From Halorientalis litorea (GTDB lineage Archaea > Halobacteriota > Halobacteria > Halobacteriales > Haloarculaceae), in contig NZ_CP095482.1 of NCBI RefSeq assembly GCF_023028225.1, positions 806,001 to 870,000 of the forward strand: a stretch of 64,000 nucleotides of DNA, read 5' to 3'. Position 1 is the stretch's first letter. The number at the start of each line of letters is the position of its first letter. A program made the translations under genes and the position numbers. The notes under the pieces are model-generated. The model searched no databases, was not told the DNA's origin, and saw only the letters and a program-made list of their open reading frames with translations. This document shows, one piece after another, positions 28,790 to 30,413 of the stretch.

Positions 28790-29677
28790 TCACTCCGTGA
28801 GTGAGAGGCACGCGAGGACGGCGAACATCGCTTCTTCGGTTCGCACGACCCCGCTGCCTTGATTCGGAACCGCATTGAGCCAGAGGTCGAACCGGGACCC
28901 ATCCGGTTCGTCGTCGGCAGATGCCGTCAGTTCTCGCTCGGTCTCTCCGCCGCCCTCGGACGCCGCCGACACCGCGTCGGCGTCGACGCCGAGTATCTCC
29001 GGCAGGCCGCGTTCGGGCGCGCCGAACGCAACCGTCATCCCGCACTCGCTGGCGTCGGCGACAACCTCGCCCAGTCGGGTGACTGTGAGCTGTTCGCCGT
29101 GCCGCGAGGTAGCGACGCGAACGCCTGCGTCGTCGCGCGAGAGTTCCGTCGAGAGGTCCGCAGTCACAACGTCGAACCCCGGAAGGGGCTCGTCGACGAT
29201 GCGAGCACGGACCGGCCGTCGCGAAGAGACCCTGATGGTTACGCGTTCCCCCTCGCCGAGTTCCGTACCGTCCGGAACCCGGAGGGAGACCGGGTGTTGC
29301 AGTCCGCAATTGACCCGAACGCGCCCCTCAGATCCGACCTCGGTCACGATTCCCTGTCTTAACGACCCCGATTCGTCAGAACCGGAGCCGGTCCGTGGTG
29401 TCACGCGGAGCGGCGGCAGGACGCCCGCGTACTCTAGTTCGTCCCGCCGCCCCCACACCTCCTTTCGGAGGTAGGGGGGCGTGGCGGCGTACCGCAGCAC
29501 GGTTTCGACGAACCCGCCACCGAACTGGCCCTCCGCCCCGGAATCGGGGAAGACGACCAAGCGGTCGACCCGAAACACCGCCGCCGCGCGGGCGACGTAA
29601 CCGAGTTTGCGAGTTGCCTCGCGTTTGTCCTCGGCTTCTCGGGTCAGCGATGACGGCACGAGTACGCTGACTGTCAT
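28790..29677 (-). CDS. SPOUT-family putative RNA methyltransferase (COG2106)
   Basis: 295 residues, first gene of the operon. The N- and C-terminal parts form a split SPOUT (alpha/beta knot) domain: 'VSVLVPSSLTREAEDKREAT' at the start and 'MTVAFGAPERGLPEILGVDA' toward the end, the latter being the SAM-binding knot region. An OB-like insert lies between them ('GSEGRVRVNCGLQHPVSLRV'). Archaeal members regularly precede rpl3 and are presumed to modify rRNA; the target is not visible here. The start MTVSVLVPSS (29677) is chosen because a TATA element lies about 60 nt upstream, giving a short leader. Confidence 0.9.
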   Translation of the reverse strand: MTVSVLVPSSLTREAEDKREATRKLGYVARAAAVFRVDRLVVFPDSGAEGQFGGGFVETVLRYAATPPYLRKEVWGRRDELEYAGVLPPLRVTPRTGSGSDESGSLRQGIVTEVGSEGRVRVNCGLQHPVSLRVPDGTELGEGERVTIRVSSRRPVRARIVDEPLPGFDVVTADLSTELSRDDAGVRVATSRHGEQLTVTRLGEVVADASECGMTVAFGAPERGLPEILGVDADAVSAASEGGGETERELTASADDEPDGSRFDLWLNAVPNQGSGVVRTEEAMFAVLACLSLTE

Positions 29678-29847: not shown

Positions 29848-29856
29848 CTTATACTA
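29848..29856 (+). promoter_or_regulatory. TATA box of tRNA-Gly
   Basis: CTTATACTA centred about 28 nt before the first base of tRNA-Gly, a canonical archaeal promoter position. Confidence 0.75.
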
Positions 29857-29879: not shown

Positions 29880-29950
29880 GCGCTGGTGGTGTAGTGGTAT
29901 CACAGGACCCTGCCACGGTCCTAACCCGAGTTCAAATCTCGGCCAGCGCA
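29880..29950 (+). tRNA. tRNA-Gly (GCC)
   Basis: 71 nt with no intron. The acceptor stem GCGCTGG/CCAGCGC pairs perfectly. The anticodon stem GGACC/GGTCC encloses the loop CTGCCAC, giving anticodon GCC. The T-stem CCGAG/CTCGG encloses TTCAAAT. The discriminator base is A and CCA is not encoded. It has its own TATA box and is divergent from the ribosomal operon. Its 3' end is copied twice just downstream. Confidence 0.97.
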
Positions 29951-30099
29951 TTTCTGTCGAGCGCAAGTCCGTGAGCGGCCGCTTTGTGGTCGCTCACATC
30001 CGCGCGAGACGAAATCGCCCCGAGATTTGAACGAGAGGAGACGCAGCGCGAGCGGAGCGAGCGACCGTCTCCGCGTAGTTCACAATCTCGGCCAGCGCA
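29951..30099 (+). repeat. tRNA-Gly-derived repeat unit A
   Basis: A 149-bp unit between the end of the tRNA and a second copy of its 3' end. It holds, in order: a 10-bp stem-loop (29971-29997), an inverted copy of the tRNA T-arm (CCGAGATTTGAAC, 30020-30032), an inner stem GGAGACG/CGTCTCC (30037-30043 with 30066-30072), and a direct copy of the T-arm and acceptor strand (30078-30099, ending TCTCGGCCAGCGCA). The inverted and direct T-arm copies can pair, forming one long structured hairpin. Confidence 0.75.
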
Positions 30100-30251
30100 C
30101 TTCTACGGCGAACATCACCGCGAGCACCTCGTGTGCTCGCGTCCGTGAGCCGTGAAGTCGCACCGAATTTGAACCCTAGCAGTCGCAGCCCGCACAGTGA
30201 GCGAAGCGAACGAGCAGGACCGTCTGCATCCGGTTCAAATCTCGGCCAGCA
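30100..30251 (+). repeat. tRNA-Gly-derived repeat unit B
   Basis: A 152-bp unit with the same plan as unit A: an 8-9-bp stem-loop (30119-30141), a degenerate inverted T-arm copy (CCGAATTTGAACC, 30163-30175), a GC-rich middle containing GTGAGCGAAGCGAACGAGC, and a direct copy GGTTCAAATCTCGGCCAGC (30232-30250). Copies 1 to 3 of the tRNA 3' end therefore finish at 29950, 30099 and about 30251. A T5 run at 30261-30265 follows and could end a transcript covering all three. Confidence 0.75.
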
Positions 30252-30274
30252 CGCTACCACTTTTTACTTCGTCG

Positions 30275-30413
30275 GGTTCGCGCTCCGCGCGAACCACTCT
30301 CTGCTCACGGGCACTTCGTGCCCGTTCGCACGGTATGCGGGACCTGCGGTCCCGCACTACTCGCAAAAACGTGGAGAAAAACAGCCGCGAGTCGCGCCTG
30401 CGGCGCGCTCGCG
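30275..30413. repeat. Cluster of four GC-rich short-loop hairpins
   Basis: Non-coding stretch between the tRNA units and the next gene. Four inverted repeats follow each other: 30275-30295 (8-bp stem), 30307-30325 (perfect 8 bp, loop TTC), 30336-30356 (perfect 9 bp, loop TGC) and 30386-30413 (12 bp with one bulge, loop TGC). No reading frame of note runs through them. The rest of the interval to 30500 shows nothing further that I can name. Confidence 0.7.

Follow-up and report, generated by a model that had tools for sequence, protein, structure and literature searches.

The locus described here raises the question of why a tRNA gene of the haloarchaeon Halorientalis litorea is followed by two long units that each end in a copy of the tRNA's own 3' end. 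It lies in a window of 64,000 nucleotides, the whole stretch of DNA that was analysed (contig NZ_CP095482.1, positions 806,001 to 870,000), within which window coordinates are given. The gene, for tRNA-Gly(GCC), occupies 29880-29950 on the plus strand (ARAGORN; Rfam RF00005, 64 bits) and is divergent from a Methyltrn_RNA_3 gene and the gene for ribosomal protein L3. A preliminary description had recognised the tRNA and two units of about 150 bp ending in its 3'-end copies, a layout confirmed by ARAGORN, Rfam and repeat search. The copies start at 29935, 30084 and 30238 and end at 29950, 30099 and about 30253; the first spacing of 149 had been given correctly, whereas the second is 154 rather than 152, the coordinates being right to within two bases. 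The tip of the third copy is damaged (CCAGCACG vs CCAGCGCA).

Both units lie on the plus strand. Unit 1 (29951-30099, 149 nt) is delimited by repeat search, by its fold and by a match at 30020-30090 to R1, a covariance model of the unit's second hairpin. It opens with stem-loop 1 (29951-30014, fold), which holds a nested hairpin, continues with an inverted copy of the T-arm, CCGAGATTTGAAC, at 30020-30032, whose partner lies at about 30078-30091 (repeat search, fold), and closes at 30078-30099 with a direct copy of tRNA positions ~52-73 that has one extra base in the T-loop (repeat search). Unit 2 (30100-30253, 154 nt) was delimited in the same way, its R1 match spanning 30162-30245 (72.7 bits). 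Its inverted T-arm copy, CCGAATTTGAACC, is found in the fold at 30163-30175, as is an inner stem at 30180-30229 that carries the conserved motif AGTCGCAGC ... GACCGTCT and a GAGCGAAGCGAAC tip; the direct copy of positions 52-73, with the damaged 3' tip, occupies 30232-30253. A GC-rich inner stem and a preceding stem-loop appear in the fold of both units and, like the two inverted copies, had been correctly anticipated.

The same holds for the signals at the two ends of the locus. A putative TATA-like box, TTATAC (29849-29854, plus strand, 31-26 nt 5' of the tRNA; sequence reading), is the only promoter-like site seen for the tRNA and both units, and a T5 run (30261-30265) follows the third copy, within a putative terminator, TACCACTTTTTACTTCGTCGGG, at 30255-30276 on the plus strand. 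The terminator string is also found directly 3' of unit-less tRNA-Gly at two other loci (L009 and L015). A second repeat element lies 3' of the last unit at 30255-30383, with the form CCACTTTTTAC..GGGTT(hairpin)AACCACTC..GCAAAAACGTGGAGAAAAA, and is 97% identical over 92 nt to a region downstream of tRNA-Pro in the same genome. Similar stretches occur at tRNAs with and without units (L009, L015, L031, L048, L072, L120, L124 and L183), and the element is perhaps a tRNA terminator element. On the other side of the tRNA, 29232-29331 on the minus strand matches the Rfam leader RF03135 ('L4-Archaeoglobi'; 69 bits, E 3.5e-12) inside the Methyltrn_RNA_3 coding region upstream of rpl3; the family behind this match may owe its conservation to the coding sequence and not to a leader.

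The 391-nt fold of the locus has an energy of -179.5 kcal/mol (z = -6.25), and none of 100 shuffles was as good, so the structure is not due to chance. Neither ARAGORN nor Rfam calls a tRNA inside the window units, which have no cloverleaf and no acceptor 5' strand. The bulge-helix-bulge of archaeal tRNA introns, with a 4-bp helix between two 3-nt bulges at the exon borders, was not noticed in the unit folds. A protein-coding role was rejected for both, as stops occur in all three sense frames.

The view from a single locus proved incomplete, the element being both genome-wide and order-wide. In the home genome, copies of a tRNA's own last 22 nt (at least 17/22 identity, within 400 nt downstream) follow 20 of 42 tRNAs, with one to three copies at each positive tRNA, and the upstream control gave 0 of 42. 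Model R1 matches 24 places in this genome (E <= 1) and is matched in 136 of 141 good Halobacteriales genomes, with up to 33 matches per genome. In a draw of 247 Halobacteriota genomes, 44 had an R1 match, all of the home order, and none was found in the roughly 200 outside Halobacteriales; the generic scan for own 3' ends gave 0 of 33 tRNAs in other Halobacteriota. This distribution places the unit family in one order, Halobacteriales. Three haloarchaea of about 50% GC without R1 matches (G042, G083 and G152) gave 1 of 30 tRNAs in the generic scan; their G+C is below that of the home genome, and the near-absence of units in them likely represents lineage losses. When the exact unit pattern was searched against 84,980 species genomes, the names among the matches listed were haloarchaeal or those of unnamed haloarchaeal bins; Actinarchaeum halophilum, the only name in doubt, is assigned to Halobacteriales. 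Haloferax prahovense, a relative of Haloferax volcanii, has two units at its tRNA-Ser(TGA). A search of 2.9 million viral contigs with the same pattern gave no match, and the idea that the units are viral sequences was rejected.

The association with tRNA genes is close. In four complete genomes of different genera, 99 of 107 R1 matches are found on the strand of a tRNA and no more than 700 nt beyond its 3' end, where about 0.5% would be expected by chance. Of the eight unlinked matches, one follows a tRNA-Pro missed by Rfam, one is without a recognisable tRNA and the others follow tRNA 3' fragments; in three of these fragment-linked cases, an inserted element separates the match from the intact tRNA, at a distance of 9-18 kb. 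At L161 (G106:C1:1782861-1782940), a good unit hairpin stands without a recognisable adjoining tRNA.

The units share a common plan, which consists of a T-rich start, stem-loop 1, the inverted T-arm copy, an inner stem and the direct copy, over a length of 96-156 nt in the home genome and about 90-240 bp overall. Stem-loop 1 has the form xCGAAC...GTGAGx and frequently encloses a nested hairpin; two types of inner stem recur across tRNAs, AGTCGCAGC...GACCGTCT and GCAGGGAGTG...GACCGTGG. Stem-loop 1 and the inner tip (e.g. 30050-30062) both have the form C-GA-RC..GY-GA-G, with tandem G.A pairs under a short loop that is often GCGAAGC, a sequence that forms a very stable DNA mini-hairpin. The limits of the direct copy were determined on 108 copies, pooled from at least 17 tRNA types and found using only tRNA positions 54-66. 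Identity to the tRNA is 0.33 at position 51, 0.86 at 52 and 0.98 at 53; it stays at 0.91 or above through to base 73 (0.91 there) and falls to 0.44 at +1, and CCA is absent from the commonest triplets 3' of these copies. With steps this sharp, the copy runs from the end of the T-stem 5' strand to the discriminator base, and the same 52/53 and 73 boundaries hold across the pooled tRNA types. Base 73, where the copies stop, is also the base behind which tRNase Z cuts. Complementarity of the units to the acceptor 5' strand, the D-arm or the anticodon arm was sought and none was found. Pairing of the acceptor 3' strand inside the unit is weak (p = 0.18 in a first test and p = 0.002 in a second), and mimicry of an acceptor stem within the unit was rejected on these two results.

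The pairing in the units is maintained by compensating changes. Among 120 distinct hairpins, 93.1% of the cells are paired, double changes number 200 against 66.8 in shuffles, and shifting the partner by a single base lowers pairing to at most 57%. Because this alignment was fitted to model R1, cleaner evidence comes from an independent alignment, A1 (37 against 15.4 in shuffles), and from orthologous units: in seven tRNA-Gly units from different genomes, including unit 2 of the window, 54 predicted pairs are kept, of which 16 are double-changed somewhere. Alignments also reveal conserved unpaired motif residues. The inverted T-arm matches the copy of its own unit better than the copies of other tRNA types (p = 7e-13), own and foreign copies both being allowed their best placement. 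The preliminary description had spoken of structured, tRNA-tailed hairpins and had made this depend in part on conservation in relatives; since the pairing is conserved and covaries there, this part of its case stands.

On the tRNA-sense strand of the model-fitted alignment, G.U pairs outnumber A.C mismatches by 74 to 14, and a comparison of mirrored mutation classes gives a G.U/A.C odds ratio of 12 (p = 1e-11). The cells of the inner stem alone (G.U 3, A.C 2) are too few for a bias, and in an earlier ungapped count without positions 52-54 the G.U bias was gone. Tolerance of G.U and not of A.C on the sense strand suggests that the structure probably acts as RNA, and it is probable, judging from these substitution patterns, that it is under selection as a sense-strand RNA. 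Folding energies indicate that tRNA and trailer fold largely independently; pairing between them adds a mean of -5.1 kcal/mol, compared with -1.7 with shuffled trailers.

The units are also subject to rapid turnover, whole units being gained and lost. At the syntenic tRNA-Gly locus of another member of the genus (G001), where the flanking gene is 85% identical, the site is empty: TACCACTTTTTAC, which in the window stands 3' of unit 2, here adjoins the 3' end of the tRNA. In other species of the genus, the units at this locus differ or are truncated, and truncated remnants are seen at L010 and L011. An identical unit stands first in the array of one species and second in that of another (L004/L016), and several similar shifts were observed. 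Array growth at the tRNA side only, in the manner of CRISPR arrays or integrons, was rejected because differences were found at both array ends. Some units are of older date or have been exchanged: in another family, unit 1 of tRNA-Gly(GCC) (L101) has an identity of about 81% to the window's unit 2.

Larger elements also occur at these sites. They stand between the tRNA and its units at tRNA-Thr (11.3 kb) and tRNA-Tyr (18 kb) of genome G106 and at tRNA-Val (9.6 kb) of G151, and left-over tRNA fragments at L079, L098, L158 and L159 extend upstream of position 52. The elements of about 10-18 kb between tRNA and unit at L155, L156 and L157 are useful for mapping attachment sites in haloarchaea. 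The hairpin is absent from the three element ends examined, and the units were accordingly rejected as the ends of full-size integrated elements. At L127 (G000:C1:938000-949500), about 9 kb separate a truncated 3' half of tRNA-Ile, which has a unit of its own, from an intact tRNA-Ile with a near-identical unit; phosphate-transport-like genes stand between the two tRNA-Ile copies, and no integrase was recognised by eye.

The explanation preferred here, with moderate confidence, is that the units are structured RNA modules of pre-tRNA 3' trailers, found throughout the haloarchaeal order, co-transcribed with the tRNA and released by tRNase Z. Transcription from the tRNA promoter would run through the tRNA and all of its modules and stop at a T-rich terminator behind the last of them. 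Within this transcript, the inverted T-arm would capture the duplicated strand and leave the tRNA to fold normally, and the tRNA and its trailer would fold independently, in keeping with the folding energies. tRNase Z would then cleave behind base 73 of the tRNA and, in each module, behind the corresponding end, and the products would be the tRNA and one stable small RNA of about 100-150 nt per module. More tentatively, and with considerable doubt, a released unit, with its tRNA-like 3' end and the T-arm hairpin of its own tRNA, could act on the processing, modification, stability or charging of that tRNA, which would amount to a tRNA-by-tRNA layer of regulatory sRNAs.

Several observations bear on this explanation. 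According to a passage on intergenic termination in Haloferax volcanii, T stretches are used there (PMC7237163), and a second-hand passage attributes 10 of the 11 tRNA-derived fragments of Heyer et al. 2012 in this species to pre-tRNA 3' trailers (PMC3544259); neither passage names the units. T4+ runs have a frequency of 0.26 after tRNAs with units, 0.24 after last copies and 0.22 after unit-less tRNAs, and an enrichment of T runs was rejected as proof of co-transcription, as they are about equally common with and without units. Because T-rich stretches lie 3' of both kinds of tRNA, termination may already occur ahead of the units, and the weakness of acceptor 3' strand pairing makes it less certain that the units form proper substrates for tRNase Z. 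The array tRNA-Asn - unit - tRNA-Met (L123) was likewise rejected as proof of read-through, as the Met gene retains a putative TATA word that is also present in the home genome. A further counterpoint is that about half of the tRNAs, and almost all of those scanned in the three haloarchaea of about 50% GC, are without units.

The turnover of whole units could also be read at the level of DNA, with tRNA positions 52-73 as a duplicated attachment site and the hairpins as signals for recombination or replication. The exact correspondence of empty and filled sites at the syntenic tRNA-Gly, the identical unit whose place in the array differs between two species, the sharp copy boundaries and the stem-loop 1 and inner-stem modules common to different tRNAs are all consistent with such a cassette, which is nevertheless judged unlikely. 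The strand-specific tolerance of G.U argues against it, as do the confinement of R1 matches, with one exception, to tRNAs or their remnants, the lack of the hairpin in the three inserted elements examined, the lack of an exact-pattern match in the viral contigs, the extra units at both array ends and the identical boundaries in at least 17 pooled tRNA types, which no single integrase should produce. A related proposal of the preliminary description, that the copies are decoys diverting integrases from the tRNA gene, has in its favour that they span the 3' end preferred by archaeal integrases (PMC8371274). It fared poorly and is highly improbable: the elements seen insert in the tRNA gene and sit between tRNA and units, several left-over fragments reach upstream of position 52 and thus exceed the unit copy, and none of the elements in this small sample was seen to have integrated into a unit copy.

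The remaining readings concern the RNA itself or deny it a function. A maturation switch, in which the inverted T-arm toggles between the tRNA T-arm and the copy so that an on/off trailer sets tRNA maturation, is suggested by the complementarity of the unit 1 inverted copy (30020-30032) to the tRNA-Gly T-arm at 13 of 13 positions, by full-length minimum-energy and centroid folds that disturb the cloverleaf and by the stronger pairing of tRNAs with real than with shuffled trailers. The independent folds nevertheless hold most of the energy, and the tRNA, being made first, should fold before the inverted copy appears; we know of no archaeal precedent for a switch of this type, and it seems quite unlikely. 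Still less probable are passive tandem duplications without function, kept by slippage and drift. The fast change of unit number and sequence within a genus and the truncated remnants would be expected of them, but the strong covariation and conserved unpaired residues would not, nor would a unit and inverted copy that track the host tRNA or a family that is present almost throughout one order and missing elsewhere.

The units are of interest for several reasons. A covarying RNA family beside about half of the tRNA genes has apparently been overlooked in genomes studied for decades, and its units allow the question of function in tRNA trailers to be tested directly. They also show that some process copies tRNA 3' ends in both direct and inverted orientation, and they provide a natural set of tRNA-end variants for studies of tRNase Z recognition.

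Among known systems, REP/BIME sequences resemble the units as short, imperfect intergenic palindromes of variable number. BIMEs are scattered between genes, whereas the haloarchaeal units are confined to the 3' sides of tRNAs and each is matched to its tRNA. Integrative elements at tRNA sites (attL/attR; SSV, pNOB8 and SNJ2 types) are likewise bordered by directly repeated copies of the tRNA 3' end. The units differ from them in lacking an integrase or any other gene (no integrase gene or cargo was found between the duplicated ends in the 149 and 154 bp of the window units), in their RNA-like fold and in their constant 52-73 boundaries across tRNA types, and the junctions of real elements in these genomes are at the tRNA itself. 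The trailer fragments of Haloferax volcanii (Heyer et al. 2012, PMC3544259) would share with the units an origin in haloarchaeal pre-tRNA 3' trailers, and the units may account for these published small RNAs; the passage concerned reports no repeats, tRNA-end copies or structure. In the open-access papers searched on haloarchaeal tRNA repeats, trailers and termination, the units are not described, and an Rfam 15 search at E up to 5 returned the tRNA itself and chance matches only.

The closest likeness is found in the tyrT operon of E. coli, where repeats of about 178 bp each contain a 19 bp copy of the tRNA 3' end. These repeats and their rtT RNA (Rfam RtT) were reportedly described by Bosl and Kersten in 1991. 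As with the haloarchaeal units, tandem repeats lie downstream of the tRNA, and every repeat terminates in a copy of the tRNA 3' end. The rtT RNA is a by-product of this tRNA operon (PMC2965389, PMC4986893). In contrast to the E. coli case, the haloarchaeal units accompany about half of all tRNA genes in almost all members of Halobacteriales, and they carry an inverted T-arm copy matched to the tRNA together with a conserved inner motif. The Rfam RtT model did not match the units at E up to 5, and the two appear unrelated by sequence. The preliminary description knew of no element of this form, which the tyrT layout qualifies. For the combination of a tRNA-matched inverted T-arm, an inner motif and order-wide presence at about half of the tRNAs, the statement stands, to our knowledge. 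What is new thus apparently lies in the tRNA-matched structure and in the scale, while the bare layout has its precedent in E. coli tyrT.
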